From Pseudovirgaria hyperparasitica (lineage: Eukaryota; Ascomycota; Dothideomycetes; Acrospermales; Acrospermaceae): a stretch of 64,000 bases of DNA. Positions 12,845 to 31,483 of this stretch are shown here, one piece after another. Made by a program: the position numbers and the translations under genes. The DNA lies in assembly GCF_010093815.1 (NCBI RefSeq), contig NW_022985572.1, forward strand, positions 62,001 through 126,000, given 5' to 3'. Below the pieces are notes generated by a model, which saw only the letters and a program-made list of their open reading frames with translations, searched no databases and was not told the origin of the DNA. Position 1 is the first letter of the stretch. Each line of letters opens with the position of its first letter.

Positions 12845-14952
12845 TTATGATGCGCCCGGTGGTTGTCCCTTGTTGCTCACATCCAATTTCCTTCCCTCAA
12901 AAGCCTCCTCTCTCGCCTTCTGTATTCTGTCGTCGCTGATGAGAAACTCCCTCGGGAACCACTGTGGTATCGCAGCATCGCCGCTTTGCATCAGATCTGC
13001 GAGAGCCTCAGCACACTTGAGCGCAAGTGCCATACCATGTCCATTGAAGCCAGCTGCAATGAACAACCCGGAGGATCCATTTCTACTTCGCTCTCCTACC
13101 TGATTCTGCGCTGCGCCTTCGAAGACCAGGGGCATGGGGACTTCTCCGATAAATGGCATATCATCCGGCGTGACCCCCATAATACCTGTCCACTCTCTTA
13201 CGACGTCTCTTCCTTTTACCGACTGTCCAGCATCATCACCATCACCATCATCACCATCACTATCATCACCATCACTATCATCACCATCACTATCATCACC
13301 ATCACCATCATCACCACCACCCCTATACCCCGTCCAGTGCTTTCCGAAATAAGCCCTGCCTATATCAGCCAAATACTCCGAAGTCGCCGGGTTCAGTTCG
13401 CTATCATCCACCGTGCCGTACTCGCTCGCTCCACTAGATGGCAAACGGCCCAGTCCTCCACCAATGATAATGTGTTGTTCTTCTCTCCCGGTCCCGTCGG
13501 AGTTACTACTCGTGCTGAGCCGTGGTATCATATAATCATAACCACCATCGTACATGAAACTGTACGTACTAGGCAGCAGTGTCGGAAGAGTGCTGCCCTG
13601 TGGCACTTTCAACGCAGCTATCTGACCTCGCAACGGTACGATGATGCTTTGCAGACTCGGCAACAAATTTGCCGTATAACCATTTGTTGCGAGCACGACG
13701 CGGCGTGCGTTTATGGTGCCTTGGGCAGTAGGTACGGCATATCTGAAATCCTGAGCTGGAGACGGCCAGGATGCGATAACACCAGTTACGGGCGTGTGGG
13801 TATACAGAGTCATGCCACGCGAAATACAGAGGCTCAATACGCCAGAAGTGAAGGCATATGCATTTATGGACCCTGCTTCGTATGCAAACGCACCATCAAC
13901 CTTCTCAGGGGCATGAATTCCACCCGGGGCTTTCTCAGGTCCGACTAGAAATTTGGTTACCGTCTTTTCAGCGTCTAGGATCTTATATGAGGCAGCAGCA
14001 TCAGCTGCGCCAAGATTGGACTGCAGAGTATGAATCGCATCGATGCCTGATGTGTACGTCGCTGGGTCATAGATGATATCCGTGGTTTGGCATGGACGAG
14101 ACGTGCACGCAATCAAGTGGGTAGATGCAAAGGCATGAGTGTCGCGGATGTTGGCGAGCTCGAGGCGGGCTATCTTTGCGGCTGTGGATGGAGAATGCGA
14201 AAGAACATGAGAAGGATAAGTACGATATGATGCTGCCTTAGTGTGGCCGCCTAGAATGGGTTAGAAAATGATAGCTTCTGAAATAACCAAAGAATCCATT
14301 CCCACCCCGGACAATGCACTGTCATGCGGATAAGTTCGAGGCGCTCTATATGAACGAATACAGAGGTGCTGAAAAAAGAGGACAAGAAGGGACTGAAGTC
14401 TCTTGAGGGTAGAAATATATGAGCCCAATTGGTATAATTCGAACTCGTTTACGTGAAATCTTTACATCCACCACGATCCTGTTTAAGCAGATCTTCAATG
14501 TACACCCATATGGGCAAAATTCGGAAGAGAGAATAGCGAATACAACTTTTGGTCAGTGACAATTGTTTGAGAGTCTTTAAACACATTCTATATACGACTG
14601 ACATGTGCGGGTGAAAGCGACGAAATTGGAAAACCTCATGACATATAGAAAGCAATAAATATGAGACATACGAAACCTTTGACTTACCATTCCTGCCTGT
14701 CGCCCCACCGACAGCATCCCTCGCTTCCAACATGACAATATCCTTCACACCCTTTTCCAGTAGATTCCAGGCAACCATAGCACCTGTGATGCCACTCCCA
14801 ATGATGACGGTATCAGCAGTCCTGGGGAGTGATTCTGTCGAACGATGGCGAGCAAGTGGTGAGGGCGGATGGTGCCAGTACGATTTGATGGGGATGGGAT
14901 GTGGAGGCTGAACGGGAATTTGTGCACGCGAATGCAGTTCTGGGTACGACAT
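12845..14952 (-). CDS. FAD-dependent oxidoreductase, DAO/glycine oxidase-like
   Basis: Exon 1 (14952-14688) and exon 2 (14250-12845) give 556 residues. The dinucleotide-binding motif VIIGSGITGAMVAWNLLEKG spans about 49-68 and is followed by the ARDAVGGATGRNGGHTKAAS region typical of fungal DAO-fold oxidases. The distal block GIMGVTPDDMPFIGEVP and the C-terminal GLFIAAGFNGHGMALALKCAEALADLM close the FAD site. Enzymes of this fold oxidise amino acids or secondary amines, giving H2O2 or feeding an acceptor; the substrate here is unknown. Two oddities: the intron is 437 nt, long for this window, and an Asp/Gly/Ser insert of about 30 residues near 398-428 comes from six 15-bp repeats. No signal peptide is seen. 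Confidence 0.85.
13231..13320. repeat. Coding minisatellite, six 15-bp units
   Basis: Six head-to-tail units of catcatcaccatcac/tatcatcaccatcac with few differences. They lie inside exon 2 of the FAD oxidoreductase and encode GDDSD/GDDGD units on the minus strand. The length is a multiple of three, so copy-number changes keep the frame. Confidence 0.92.
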
Positions 14953-17843: not shown

Positions 17844-19239
17844 TCAGTGCATCATCATCATCATCATCGACGTAGAAGTAATATTTTGATCCCTCCTCCG
17901 GTCGATTACCGGTGTGAAACCACCGTCATATTTGCTAGGGGGTAGCGATATCACATCAAAAGGGCCTCCCTGTAGCGTGATAGATGTGGAAGCCAAGGGA
18001 CCAAACTTATCAGATCCGTTCTCAGGCACAATTGTTATTTTCAGAATCTCTGCAAGAGCACGGTCATCCTGCAAATGTTCCTCCTCTGGGAAATCCAATT
18101 TGAGAAACGTGATTTCACCTTGGTAGGATGCCCATGACCACGAGGATACACGCCACTCCTTTGTATAGTGGAAGCCTTGTCGCAGAAAGGTCATCCCATC
18201 CCCAATGGCATCCTTCCGGCCGTCATTCTCGTACCTGATCACCCCATAGTACCATGCAAGTTGTGAAAATAATTCATTGTACCACAAGCCTGCGACATAG
18301 TCGCAGCCCATCAGTGGGCTGAACTCTCGGGCAATTGCCGAGATAGCTGTTACTTCGTCTTTCGCTTGAGTAAGGTTCCTGTGAGTTCGCCTGTGACCGG
18401 GTCGCGATCCAGCCGCATATAAACCTCAACTGTAGTAATCCAAATTCGAAGGCCTTCTAGAGATATGTTCCGCGACGCATTAGCGTCGCTCGAAGCACCA
18501 AGTCTCCCTAACTCAATGAAAGTGTCGAAGCGAGTCTTTGCGGCCCGTACGTAATTATCACGCCCCTGAAACCGACGAGCCATCTCTATCACTGTGGCCT
18601 GACCACATTTCCATCGCAATAGTGAATTTGTAAAGTTAAGGATTCTTGGAGCGAGCAATCTCTGGATTCTGAATAAACCTCGGTAGGTTATGCGATGATT
18701 CGAAGTGAAGATAGCATACCTCCTGAAATACCAACCTCGCTTATTCAGTGGCTGATAATCAAGGCTAGGAGGATCATACATGAGATCCTTCCTTCTTCCA
18801 TGGTGTATACCATGGACTTTTGCGCAAGGGCCTATTGCTTCCTCGGTCTTCCCTCGAGGCACAGAAGGTCTCGGTCCGACCGTATTGATAGCATCGATGA
18901 ATTTTGGAAACTGGTTCAGTGATGGTGGTTCCTTCTTCCACTGGTCCGAAACTTCAACACCGGAGAGACTAATTTGAGAGCCCTTTAGACCCCATCGATG
19001 GGATAAAGTAGCATAACATACGCCTTCTGGGATATCGTCCCCCGTGACCAGTGATATGGTGTCAGAGCCAGCATGCAGATATAGCAGTCGGCTAGGTCGA
19101 AATGCTCTCTCCAGAGAATTGCGACAAGGCGTCCACACTTTTCGTGCTTGTTACGACAAGGTATTGAGTCAATATTTTGCCAGTACCATACACTCCTCTG
19201 ATCCGGTGGAGCGATTCGTGTAATAGGGCGCTGGCCCAC
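17844..19239 (-). pseudogene. Degraded HET-domain (heterokaryon incompatibility) gene
   Basis: Pieces of a HET-domain protein follow one another on the minus strand in the right order but not in one frame. They are a leading Cys/His segment, ATLSHRWG, a PLNKRGW-type block, LLAPRILNF, and a C-terminal tail with AISAIAREFSPLMGCDYV and WSWASYQGE. HET proteins act in non-self recognition after hyphal fusion. The copy looks broken in several places, about three or more, and the central conserved block of the domain appears to be missing. It is therefore called a relic rather than a multi-intron gene. An ATG microsatellite sits at its 3' end. It lies at the edge of a TA-rich gene-poor stretch, consistent with decay in an accessory region. 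Confidence 0.65.
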
Positions 19240-20814: not shown

Positions 20815-22997
20815 CTATGATCCATTCGCAATTTCCACAACCCGATCTGCAGCCTCATCAAACCGATCAAACGCCTCCAACTTCAACCCACTCTCAGCAA
20901 TTATCCGCTGCCCCTCCTGCTCGTTCGTCCCCTTGATGCGCACCACCACCGGAATGCCCTTTTCCTGCAATCCCAACTCTTTGAACGCAAGCAATATGCC
21001 ATTAGCAATCATGTCGCCCAGCGTCAGGCCGCCGAAGATATTGACAAAGATCACCTTGACGCGGTCGTCGCGCAGGATCAGGTTGAAGGACTGCTTGACC
21101 GTCTCGGAGGTGGCCTTGCCGCCGGTGTCGAGGAAGTTGGCACTCTTGCCGCCATGGCTGTACAGTGCGTCGACGGTGTTCATGGCGAGGCCGGCGCCGT
21201 TGACGAGCGTGCCGATGTTGTGGGTGCGGTCGGATGAGGCGCCGAGCTTAACGTAGACAATGCCGTCCTTTTCGGCTTCGAGCTCGGCGGGGTCGACGGC
21301 GTCTCTGTCTCGAAGTGCGTGTATCTCTTGTTGGCGCTTCGCAGACTTGGGGGCGGAGTCGTCGAACATGAAGGACGGGTTGAAGATTTTGAGGGTGTCG
21401 GATTGGGTGTCGACAGAAACTGAGACGGTCAGGTCGATGGCTTCGGTGGCGGTGTACATCGTAGACAGGGTTTTGATGAGCTTATATGCTTGGCTTTTGG
21501 CGGCAGGGGGTGCGGCGTCGAGCTGTAGATGGGCGATGGCTTCTTCGATTAGAGTTTTGGAGGGTCCCTGGTGGTAATTGTAGGGGAAGCGCTTAGAGCG
21601 CTTTTCGAAGGTTGACATATCGGTAGAAGGAGAGACGAGGATTGACGGGGAGCGAGCAGAACGATCGACTGTGATGGAGAGGAAGCGTGCATCAGAATCG
21701 GAAGGGGTCGAGGAAGTGTTGATACCTTGTTTATTGAGGAGGTCTGAGGCTTGTTGAGCAGAGATGTTAAGAGATCGGCGCTGTATTGTGTGATTCACGG
21801 AAGAACTCGGAGGAGTCATGCGTAGTCTATTAATCATACGTGAAGTATGATATCCTCGCTTTTGAGAAGGCGTTGCTTTATCGGTCTGTTGGTGTCAGAA
21901 GGGATCGTGATCGCACGTTGCTGATGCTTACTATGTATTGCTCTCGCCCGCTCTGCTTCATGAGAGTCTTCATGAGACTGCCGAGCTTTGTAGGATGGTC
22001 TACAACAGGCACGCCCACATTCTTCAATATCTCGACCTTCTCATGCGCTAGTTTGTCTCCTGGTAGTGCAAAGGCGCCCGCATGGCCCATGATCGTACCC
22101 TGCCTCGCATGTACACCACCAATCACAGCCGCGATGGGCTTAGGATTCTTCACACGCTTCTTGTAGTCTGCGATCCACTCTGCAGCATCAGTTTCGGTTC
22201 TACCCCCTATCTCACCACACATTATGATTGCATGCGTGTCCGGATCAGTCTCAAAAGCCGTCAAAGCTTCGACAAAGTTGGTGCCAGCAACGATGTCTCC
22301 ACCCATACCGATCACTGTGCTCTGTCCTAGTCCAGCACTTGTGAGAGCACCGACTGTCTCGTAGCTTAAAGTGCCAGACTTCGCGATGATACCCACGTGA
22401 CCAGGTGCGAAACACGGCAGAGGCTGGAACCCGATCCGGCATCGACCAATAGCCGAGATGATTCCAGGAGCATTTGCACCCACCAGTCTCGATTTGGATT
22501 GTGTTTGTAGGATCGAGGATATCTTAACGGTATATTAGAGAAGACGACTAGAGAGACAGACACTGCTACAAGCTTACTCTCAGAATGTCGTGAAGTGGGA
22601 TGTGTTCGGCTACAGCTACAATGAGGGGGATTTCGGCCTCGATGGCCTCCTCTATAGCAGGAGCGGCCTGTCCAGCGGCCACGTAGATGGCTGTGGCATC
22701 AGGATTGAGCTTCTCCTTCGCTGCTCTCACGCTTGGTAGCACGGGTAGACCCAAATGTTCACTTTCAGTGTTTGGTTTCACACCACCCACAATGTTGGTC
22801 CCCCACTCGATGGAGGCTTTCGCATTCATGGTAGCCTGCTTTCCTGTGAATCCCTGAAACATGACACGCGTGTGGGCGCCAATCTGGAGGTTCTTGATCG
22901 TGTCCGCATAGTTGTCACGTGAATAAGTCACAGAGAAGCTCCGCCGTGCCAGAGACTTGGGCACGACGGACTTTTGTGAAGCTCTCAAGAGTAACAT
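20815..22997 (-). CDS. Succinyl-CoA ligase alpha-beta fusion protein, ATP-grasp module reduced
   Basis: Three phase-0 exons (22997-22578, 22522-21932, 21885-20815) encode 693 residues. Residues 1-337 are a full alpha subunit: an Arg/Ser-rich presequence (LARRSFSVTYSRDN), the CoA-binding domain (TRVMFQGFTGKQ), APGHVGIIAKSGTLSYE, and the phosphohistidine loop GTIMGHAGA with His287. A 46-nt intron joins this to a beta-like half. Its linker (about 338-377) ends QRRSLNIS, like the mature start of mitochondrial beta subunits. A first helix (QQASDLLNKQGI) follows, but about 100 residues of ATP-grasp domain are absent before the VDRSARSPSILVS strand. The CoA-ligase end (VNGAGLAMNTVDAL, FLDTGGKATSE, VNIFGG) is intact. 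The normal enzyme interconverts succinyl-CoA and succinate in the mitochondrion. This protein may be a divergent paralogue; nucleotide binding is doubtful. Confidence 0.85.
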
Positions 22998-28586: not shown

Positions 28587-31483
28587 CAGGCTTCTCTGTT
28601 TAGCTCTTCTAGCTCCTTTAGCTCCCCTGGCTTCCCGTCGGCTGCAATATCCATTTCCCCCTCTTTATTGTCTGCGTCATGTCCGTCATTTTCTGTGTCC
28701 ACATCCGGGCTTACATCGTCCTTTGACTTCCCCTGCGTAGGAACCATCATCGATCGCACTTCTGATTCAATACCAAAAGCCCGCGCAATCGCTAACTGTA
28801 CATGATACATAGTACTTGTCTGGGTGGTAAGACTAGCCATGACGTAGAGGACGTTGCCAAGCACGCGGCAGTGAATTGGTTGTCTGATGGAGCGTTCAAG
28901 ATCATTCTGAAGCGTAACAGCTGCTCTAGATGAATACCCTGCCACTAATATTAGCTGCAATTCCACTCTGTTCTTTCCGACACATGATACTTACCAGATC
29001 CCTCGGGGTCAGTGATTTTTATTGCAAGCACAGTTCCCAAAGCCACTACACTTGAAACTCTTTCTTGTCGAGAGAGAAGCTTCACAAATTCAAGGTGCCA
29101 ATGACTCCAGACCCGTTCATATGGAAGACGACTGACGATTAAGTTATTGACTCTGTCTGGCTCCGACGGTATCGCACGTGCAGCTCGCGCCCAGGAGAGC
29201 TTGAATAACTTGGTGGCCCTTTGCTGCTGAATATCGTTCATCATCCACAAAGCCTTCTTAGCTACAGTGCATCCCATCGCATGTGCTGTGTAACTATGTC
29301 CGTGGAGGAGCGCATCGGACTTTTCGTCGCCCAAGAAAGCCTCAAAGATGCTATTGGATGCAAGCGTCAAGCAAAGCGGAAGAAGGCCACCGGTAAGCAA
29401 CTTGGCATGTACAGAAATGTCGGGTTTCACCCCCAGGAAACTTGCGGCGCTGAATCGTCCCAGACGGTACAGTCCTGTGAAAACCTCATCGAACACAACA
29501 GGCAAGCCCTGCCAGGCATATGGATCCCGGAAAGCCGATTGCAACTCTTGTTTCCCAAAGTTGCGTCGCCGCACTGCATTAACCAGGGCACTCTGAAATA
29601 GAGGATCTCTGTTACATGACTAGTTAGCATTTTACTTGACTTTAGTCTAAAGGCTGGGACAGGTCATTTCTTACGCGAATATCATTCCTCCAGCACCAAG
29701 CAAGACTGGTTCCATGACCAGGGCTCCGAACTTTCTTCCTTTTTCATTCACCTCCTCATCAAGCACTTTGTCAATGTATTTCTCATACACTGCTGGATCT
29801 CTTGATGCAAAAACTTGGTTTAAGTCGTCGAAAGTCTCTCCAGGCCCGAATTCAGCCTCCATACCCTTTGGTGGGCTGACTACCCATTTGCCGTCTTTCA
29901 TACCAACCGAAGGATAGTCGAACCAGTAGCCACGACCTCGATACCATTCAGTCTTTGTGTTGAAAACTGAGGGCTCTGAACAGTCCATTGCACCAATTGT
30001 ATCTCCATGGTAGGATCCTTTGAGTCCTATAATTTCAATGGAGTCTTGTTGTCCCGTAAACCCGTACCTCTTCACTGCTGCTTTCAGTGCCATCTTGATG
30101 CCTACTTCGATACCGGTGCTCCCGTTGTCTGTAAAGAATACCTTCTGCAGACGGGCATTCTCTAGTCTCTCCAAAAAGGTCTCCGCTAGTTCGAGTGCAG
30201 GCTCATGAATCGCACCAGCAAACATAACATGTCCATATCGACCAGCTGCATACGCCGCTGCTAGAGATAAAGCTGGATTGCTATAAAGCAATTAGTGCCA
30301 GGTCAGATACATGTTCACGGATCTTAACATACCCATGTCCAAGGCCTTGGGTCCACCAAGATGCTGAACCATCGAAAGTACGTGATACCTTTTCTGCTGG
30401 CTTTGTTAGAGTAAAGTAGTCGCCGTAAGCTGAGTCAATTGGAAGCAGGTCAGCGGCCTCAGACTCCTTGTGTTGCATGAAGGGATGCCATATGGAACTA
30501 GCAGCTCGTGACCTTAAAGATGATGCAGATGTTCTGAACGCGTCCTTATCACACAGAAGGAGCTCCGTAAAGATCTCATGAACATGGGTACCCTTTCTCA
30601 TTATCTGATTGTAATAGTCATCCATTATGGCAGCGTCGCGGCTTGTGTCTTGTTCCTGCGGCGGAATCGGCGGAAGTACAATGATGTTTCGAGCCAATTG
30701 AGAATATCCGTATAAATTCAGGTATGTCCTCACGTCTCGGTCGTTCTGGTGAGGTTCATTTCCGAAGAACACCAGCTGTTCGACATCGTATCCGCGCAAG
30801 GTCAGTGATTCAAACGCAGACACGGTGCTTGACACACCACCTAGTTTTGAATCACCCACAAGGACAATCGGCAATCGGAAAGAACGATAGAAGTCAGCCT
30901 GGGCTCTACCGCTTGGAAGAGGAGACATAACCCCTCCAAATGTTTCAACTATAGAGTAACTGCCAGGGCGATTCAGATCATCAGCAAGGATTTTCAACAT
31001 TTTGGAATCGTCCAGCTCCCTAAAGCCAGTACTGTAATCCTAGAGAAATGTTACCCAATTGTGTCCGATGTGACTGAGAACAGACGTACCGCATTTCGTG
31101 CCGCATTTCGCTCCCACTCTGCAGCACGGGTAGGGCTCCATGGCTGACTGTACTTCTGGTAGCACTTGACCATAACATTATTTGCGTGTCTTTTGATGTG
31201 GCTTGGGGCGGTTAGCATACTCCAATCAACAAATGACCGCTTAATTAGGGGAGACATACACGTGGTCTAACGTTTGTTCAGGACCGGTGGCAACAGGTTT
31301 GATGTACCGAATACTTGTGCCTTCCGGTGGGTCAACTTTGCAGAAGAGTGATGATACGATTGTTTTGCCGACGTCAGTATTGGCGCCAAATATCTGTATA
31401 GCTCTGCCATTGGGAGTGCGAATACTGGTCTTGAGAGGCAGTGTCCATTTTCGATTAAGCCCTTTGCGTATGACGGGCTTCAT
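28586..31483 (-). CDS. bioDA: Bifunctional dethiobiotin synthetase / DAPA aminotransferase (biotin synthesis)
   Basis: Six exons (31483-31260, 31201-31090, 31039-30333, 30280-29675, 29608-28995, 28944-28586) give 873 residues with consistent phases. The N-terminal half is dethiobiotin synthetase: P-loop GANTDVGKT at about 33-41, IRYIKPVATGP, and VETFGGVMSPLPSG. The C-terminal half is a class III PLP aminotransferase: WWTQGLGHG, FFTDNGSTGIEVGIKMAL, VVFDEVFTG with Asp590, and Lys619 in HAKLLTGG as the likely PLP lysine. The two halves carry out successive steps from KAPA via DAPA to dethiobiotin. Fused bioDA genes are known in Aspergillus, and a BIO3-BIO1 fusion in plants. The enzyme is often mitochondrial, and the basic N-terminus (MKPVIRKGLNRKW) would fit. 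The tail after about residue 840 is acidic and low-complexity. The gene is head-to-head with PAT1. Confidence 0.94.

Follow-up and report, generated by a model that had tools for sequence, protein, structure and literature searches.

The described enzyme that most resembles the system reported here is succinyl-CoA synthetase (SUCLG1 with SUCLA2 or SUCLG2; SucCD in Escherichia coli), to which both halves of a 693-residue protein from the fungus Pseudovirgaria hyperparasitica (Dothideomycetes) are homologous. The gene lies on the minus strand, as do all its features given below, at 20815..22997 of the window, by which we mean the whole 64,000-nucleotide stretch of DNA that was analysed. The fungal protein shares with the synthetase the CoA-binding fold, phosphohistidine loop, glutamate and CoA loop of the alpha subunit, and the CoA-ligase domain of the beta subunit with its N-G-A-G and N-I-F-G-G loops. 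It differs in that both halves occupy one reading frame in the order alpha–beta, the first subdomain of a now incomplete ATP-grasp is deleted, the Mg2+ ligands are lost, the active-site loops carry fixed replacements and the NCBIfam scores stay below their cut-offs. From the pattern of conservation we favour, with moderate confidence, a mitochondrial polyprotein that would be cut into alpha- and beta-like chains forming a nucleotide-independent, succinyl-CoA-ligase-like enzyme.

FdrA, also called AllF, is a bacterial parallel that is not known to carry an ATP-grasp. The available part of one study describes the E. coli protein as a 555-aa chain of SucD-like and Ligase_CoA domains in which succinyl-CoA synthetase activity was undetected, and its domain list for FdrA names no ATP-grasp (PMC8550087); together with AllG and AllH it constitutes the oxamic transcarbamylase, which turns oxamate and carbamoyl phosphate into oxalurate and inorganic phosphate (Pi), and back, without a nucleotide, according to the accessible portion of a second study (PMC11326118). 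The fungal protein likewise has SucD-like and Ligase_CoA domains in a single ATP-grasp-less frame, whereas FdrA/AllF belongs to a bacterial three-gene enzyme without mitochondrial processing. The fungal match to the FdrA NCBIfam model is weak and partial (22.4 bits versus a cut-off of 433), and the protein falls outside the FdrA family; by analogy, the parallel nonetheless suggests that such proteins can join acyl-phosphate chemistry without a nucleotide.

The precedent for processing is yeast ARG5,6 (acetylglutamate kinase/acetylglutamyl-phosphate reductase), which is cut internally by the mitochondrial processing peptidase (MPP) after import, as stated in excerpts of PMC8835746 and PMC10450427. 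Its homologue in the Pseudovirgaria genome is one 898-aa frame (C20:804400-808600, minus strand) with kinase and dehydrogenase domains, and it carries QQIRQFSSSTR, containing the motif RQFSS, between kinase and reductase. Both proteins hold two mitochondrial enzymes per frame and an internal MPP-type motif; the enzymes are unrelated, and cleavage was demonstrated experimentally for yeast ARG5,6 and is predicted from sequence for the ligase-like protein.

Two further groups are instructive. Single-chain ADP-forming acyl-CoA synthetases, among them Nmar_0206 with the domain order 1-2-5-4-3, belong to the same superfamily and also have shuffled subdomains and an interdomain linker, but, within the available sections of PMC11494057, they retain the ATP-grasp unit that the fungal protein is without. 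ATP-citrate lyase (ACL) differs by its citrate synthase module, which is absent from the fungal protein, where Pfam at E 0.001 finds PF02629, PF13607 and PF00549 only. Beauveria BBA_8607, possibly the other ACL subunit, is named 'succinyl-CoA synthetase-like' and numbered beside ACL subunit 1 in the accessible text of PMC9031566. Judged by their listings, our paper searches, with most subscription journals outside their scope, showed none evidently about this fungal protein or such a eukaryotic enzyme.

Gene structure and the deletion

The original prediction, made from the window alone, read one three-exon alpha–beta frame here, and the predicted splice indeed gives 693 aa with 100% identity over 100% of the deposited P. 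hyperparasitica protein P0001 (693 aa), named 'succinyl-CoA ligase-like protein subunit alpha'. Exon 1 (22578..22997, residues 1-140) and exon 2 (21932..22522, residues 141-337) are separated by a 55-nt intron (22523..22577, GT...AAG). Intron 2, of 46 nt (21886..21931, GTAAGC...CTGAC...CAG), precedes exon 3 (20815..21885), which encodes residues 338-693 and the stop, comprising most of the linker and the entire beta-like half. The protein opens with a mitochondrial presequence-like segment (22917..22997, residues 1-27) that ends in ARRSFSVTYSR and has a net charge of +6; in an AlphaFold2 (AF2) model the predicted local distance difference test score (pLDDT) is below 50 at residues 1-26. Pfam places CoA_binding (PF02629) at residues 42-132 (22602..22874), Succ_CoA_lig (PF13607) at residues 180-326 (21965..22405) and two stretches of Ligase_CoA (PF00549), the best at residues 564-686 (20839..21207), with no match to ATP-grasp anywhere in the 693 residues, PF08442 included. 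The AF2 model of the uncut chain has a predicted template modelling score (pTM) of 0.82, and its alpha half is intact in fold, superposing on succinyl-CoA synthetase alpha at 1.6 Å. The VIA-align rows cover the alpha side; structure comparison of the beta half rests on Foldseek, whose matches span 296-307 columns with template modelling (TM) scores by target of 0.61-0.71 and root-mean-square deviations of 2.1-3.1.

The family was assembled from two protein searches (best 120 of 1457 and best 120 of 6360 significant matches), giving 218 distinct proteins including the query, with a median length of 691.5 residues (range 568-960). In alignments residues 379-384 pair with H-E-x-Q-x-K, the start of bacterial betas, and residue 405 pairs with E. 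coli beta residue 109; the 29 residues at 376-404 replace about 108 of E. coli beta, and the deletion point falls at residues 394-404 (21685..21717). A loss of about 100 residues, leaving the ATP-grasp module largely absent, had been predicted: the first subdomain is gone, but the net loss is about 80 residues and the second subdomain (residues 404-540, 21277..21687) remains in decayed form with its Mg2+ ligands replaced. The stretch at the deletion measures 24-36 residues in 218 of 218 aligned proteins, and in the Pseudovirgaria gene it lies inside exon 3. A missed ATP-grasp exon was rejected, since the frame runs on without a break and the gap is common to all 218, which bears out the earlier claim that no intron had been overlooked. 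The layout is common to the 119 other proteins of the best 120 (55-64% identity, 93-100% query coverage) and, judged by these alignments, a deletion-bearing layout so conserved is far beyond chance.

With the beta half alone as query, the alpha GHAG, the linker motif and NGAGLAMNT occur in one uninterrupted frame in 96 of the best 120 of 2904 matches, which establishes the fusion as genuine as far as the open frame is concerned. Free-standing truncated beta genes were rejected on the same evidence, since the sole NCBI-named match among these 120 (P0328, 456 aa) starts within alpha; the remaining matches are taken as metagenomic gene calls that ignore introns, or exon pieces, and some may duplicate species of the 218 set. 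These frames also bear on whether two neighbouring genes were joined in a faulty model, or a pseudogene mistaken for a gene. A retained intron 2 would end the alpha part at its in-frame TAA, and ATG codons occur early in exon 3; the introns nevertheless have canonical signals, the junction is crossed without interruption in those relatives and conservation extends over 218 proteins, which leaves an artefact extremely improbable, and we rejected it.

The linker and its candidate processing sites

The linker within exon 3 (residues 338-376, 21769..21885) is disordered and basic by alignment, charge and AF2, with a mean of 9.5 basic and 1.3 acidic residues across the family and pLDDT below 50 at residues 341-373 of the query. 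Its columns are variable except for two main islands. The first, Q[R/K]R-x-[Y/M/F/L/I]-H-T, is represented by QKRGYHT at residues 345-351 (21844..21864); R347 is found in 215/218 proteins, H350 in 214/218 and T351 in 207/218, and the closing triplets are YHT (86), MHT (42), FHT (33), LHT (22) and IHT (18 of the 218). The second, Q[K/R]R-x-[L/I], is represented by QRRSL at residues 372-376 (21769..21783), at the old N-terminus of beta, with Q372 in 204/218, R374 in 215/218, L376 in 186/218 and R.[LIFV] in 211/218. A short R-P follows island 1 in most proteins (columns 361-362).

Within the available text of PMC10450427, arginine at -2 or -3 is typical of MPP sites, F-H-T or F-S-T is given, citing earlier work, as the most efficient P1'-P3', and the natural Su9 site KRAYSS was engineered into RGGGRRAFHT for yeast polyproteins. 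The fungal linker contains an internal site of the R-2/R-3 type in a flexible interdomain setting. The pattern R.Phi[HS][ST] occurs in the linker of 205/218 proteins and eight times in total beyond linker and N-terminus; R.Phi-H-[TS] occurs in 206/218 linkers versus 1.0% of shuffled linkers, and [RK]R[GASQ]Phi-H-[TS] in 161 linkers and no other place. As a positive control, R.Phi[HS][ST] in the ARG5,6 homologue matches the inter-enzyme stretch and residue 54, at the N-terminus, only. The N-terminus of the family is basic, with a median net charge of +5 over the first 25 residues (192 proteins). What is new in this analysis is the resemblance of the linker to a mitochondrial presequence placed internally, with an MPP-type site similar to the engineered RGGGRRAFHT, and cleavage into two chains is likely.

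A single fused enzyme had been predicted; the frame is single, but what it encodes is more probably a precursor from which two chains are cut, the MPP-type motif of the linker having been overlooked. It is unlikely that the protein works as one uncut, ATP-grasp-less acyl-CoA enzyme whose linker motif is a relic. The single frame in 218 deposited proteins, the single-chain superfamily relatives described in the available sections of PMC11494057 and the pTM of the single-chain model would all suit such an enzyme; a relic, by contrast, would be expected to decay, and R347 and R374 are each retained in 215 of 218 proteins though the residues between them vary.

Active sites and the proposed chemistry

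Near-invariant columns were taken for alpha from 82 canonical sequences (80 bacterial, the fungus's own and pig) and for beta from 72 (69 bacterial, its own, human SUCLA2 and E. coli). Of the 97 such columns in alpha, 63 are kept, including T51, G52, E131, Y194, E244 and H287, 34 are changed and none is deleted. The beta-like half divides sharply: 31 of 46 columns are kept and 15 changed in residues 541-693, whereas residues 376-540 keep 2 and change 19, and a further 22 beta columns, GGRG among them, are deleted. The phosphohistidine His287 (22082..22084), placed there by the original prediction, is H in 217/218 proteins and a gap in one, and Glu244 of the E-I-G-G motif (22211..22213) is E in 218/218. 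The canonical Asn and Asp, which we take to be the Mg2+ ligands, are kept in 14/218 and 18/218 proteins respectively, and both in 1/218. This column pattern indicates that site I (CoA, acyl group, phosphate and histidine), whose E. coli residues we take to include H246, Y159, N264 and 321-323, is largely kept and that site II (nucleotide and Mg2+) is gone. Family-wide replacements in otherwise conserved loops (G132H, V591T, C563T and I624L, each near 100%) suggest an altered substrate or reaction. A non-catalytic regulator that merely binds CoA or acyl-CoA would accommodate the lost nucleotide and Mg2+ sites and the many changed columns; it would have no need of a phospho-acceptor, however, and with His287 and Glu244 so uniformly present we consider such a pseudoenzyme quite improbable.

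The favoured polyprotein would then operate as follows. A nuclear-encoded precursor, conserved across Pezizomycotina classes, would be imported into mitochondria, where MPP would remove the N-terminal presequence and cleave within the linker, at Q[R/K]RxPhi-H-T and possibly a second time at QRRxL, so that the alpha-like and the ATP-grasp-less beta-like chains would be released in equal amounts. The chains would pair in the manner of succinyl-CoA ligase, with site I and no site II, and from this we infer that they could carry out acyl-CoA and phosphate chemistry via the histidine without ATP or GTP, beside the canonical enzyme; succinyl-CoA, or an acyl-CoA related to it, might for example undergo phosphorolysis or hydrolysis. 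Acyl-CoA handling without nucleotide coupling had been among the options first put forward, and it fits the conservation pattern best.

Several observations weigh against this proposal. On the processing side, no more than 168/216 proteins have their most basic window beyond the N-terminus in the linker; the exact RR[GAS]FHT occurs in 2/218 and R.[FY]HT in 118/218, an inexact match to the engineered site; R.Phi-H-[TS] is found nowhere in 11/218, most of which keep a near form (RRSYQT, KRGMHM), and P0024 has a shortened linker without it. An MPP-like motif is present in the first 45 residues of 80/218 proteins only, and in the ARG5,6 homologue a looser expression also matches residues 96, 622 and 892. 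The basic, disordered linker could be a relic of beta's ancestral presequence, an origin that fails to explain the conservation of the motif alone. On the catalytic side, about a third of the columns on the site I side are changed, several of them fixed, and the chemistry may consequently be a different one or have disappeared; the NCBIfam succinate-CoA ligase cut-offs are missed by both halves (alpha 288.2 versus 336, beta 208.8 versus 370).

Origin, distribution and meaning

Elsewhere in the genome the Ligase_CoA profile matches the canonical alpha (C12), the canonical beta (C3) and a gene at C2 that is probably ATP-citrate lyase. The exons of the canonical alpha and beta were read from the genome and form separate genes, which the original prediction had proposed to look for, so the fungus also has the ordinary enzyme and no obvious spare donor of ATP-grasp; a separate canonical beta, Pa_3_7700, is likewise reported for Podospora anserina in the available part of PMC4683621. 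The suggestion that a partner might lend its ATP-grasp found no backing in exon-wise searches, which may miss split domains: PF08442 (ATP-grasp_2) matches no gene but the canonical beta, and PF13549 (ATP-grasp_5) has no match in the genome. Ascomycetes should have an ACL-type ATP-grasp, and these searches missed any such domain too; their result is hence no proof of absence.

In trees the alpha halves of the fusion family form one clade and the beta halves another. The alpha clade branches next to the canonical alpha of the same genome, at 86% in the Shimodaira–Hasegawa-like approximate likelihood ratio test (SH-aLRT) only and on a long branch, and the beta tree does not settle the attachment of the fusion clade; a duplication within fungi is the likely origin. 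When prokaryote contigs were scanned with two peptide patterns from the family alignment, the patterns matched 44 times but revealed no relative, which weakly disfavours a bacterial origin of the fused gene. The clades also bear on an explanation in which the canonical ligase is the target of the chains, whether or not these are separated, either through truncated beta pairing with canonical alpha and blocking coupling or through the alpha-like chain borrowing ATP-grasp from canonical beta. Both canonical partners exist, no further ATP-grasp_2 was matched, the modelled alpha fold is intact and a cut in the linker would let the chains mix; the single clade of each half and the fixed, family-specific replacements in both active-site halves suggest instead that they evolve as a pair of their own, and we regard action on the canonical enzyme as improbable.

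The homologue search that had been proposed for gauging the spread of fusion and deletion thus recovered at least 218 proteins, and among the matches listed there are at least five Pezizomycotina classes, which from protein names we presume to be Dothideomycetes, Leotiomycetes, Sordariomycetes, Eurotiomycetes and Coniocybomycetes; as these are best-120 sets, they carry no inference of absence from other taxa. Four proteins bear names from outside these classes, namely Mycena vitilis (P0118), Quercus suber (P0011 and P0020) and Carpinus fangiana (P0120), and are probably contamination, or perhaps transfer in the case of Mycena. One protein of the 218, P0215 from Myotisia sp. PD_48, has an extra C-terminal 4HBT thioesterase domain (residues 858-921), which may be a true fusion, and then a hint of acyl-CoA hydrolysis, or the product of joining two gene models. 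Many family members are deposited as alpha subunits of succinyl-CoA ligase or synthetase (for example in Lasiodiplodia theobromae, Aspergillus clavatus and Coccidioides immitis) and many others as hypothetical; P0172 from Chaenotheca gracillima is deposited as 'Nucleoporin nup84', a misfit, as the protein aligns with the family.

Ten neighbouring frames of the window yield Pfam matches to DAO, Aminotran_3/AAA_26, PAT1 and MFS pieces, with four lacking a match, and show no evident link that would mark a gene cluster. At 28951-31039 (minus strand) pieces of an aminotransferase class III and AAA_26 lie in adjoining frames, presumably a fused biotin BioD-BioA gene. An FAD-dependent oxidoreductase (DAO) frame at 12845-14260 (minus strand) has an inserted acidic D/G/S repeat, with the opposite strand also open over a long frame, and the frame at 18350-19150 (minus strand) contains GVCYATLSHRWG and, with no Pfam match, resembles what we take to be HET-domain proteins.

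The family is a conserved variant that is often misleadingly named in databases, and its proteins may be miscounted as a Krebs-cycle enzyme. It is possible, though we hold it doubtful, that it represents an MPP-cut, self-stoichiometric enzyme of fungal mitochondria that has shed its nucleotide site, performs acyl-CoA, phosphate and phosphohistidine chemistry uncoupled from ATP or GTP, and provides a second branch that conserves no energy, either at the succinyl-CoA step or for another acyl-CoA. If the proposal is true, the deposited name misleads because nucleotide coupling is gone, moulds would have a further MPP-cut polyprotein besides ARG5,6, with a natural site near the engineered one, and a nucleotide-free branch would be possible at the succinyl-CoA step.
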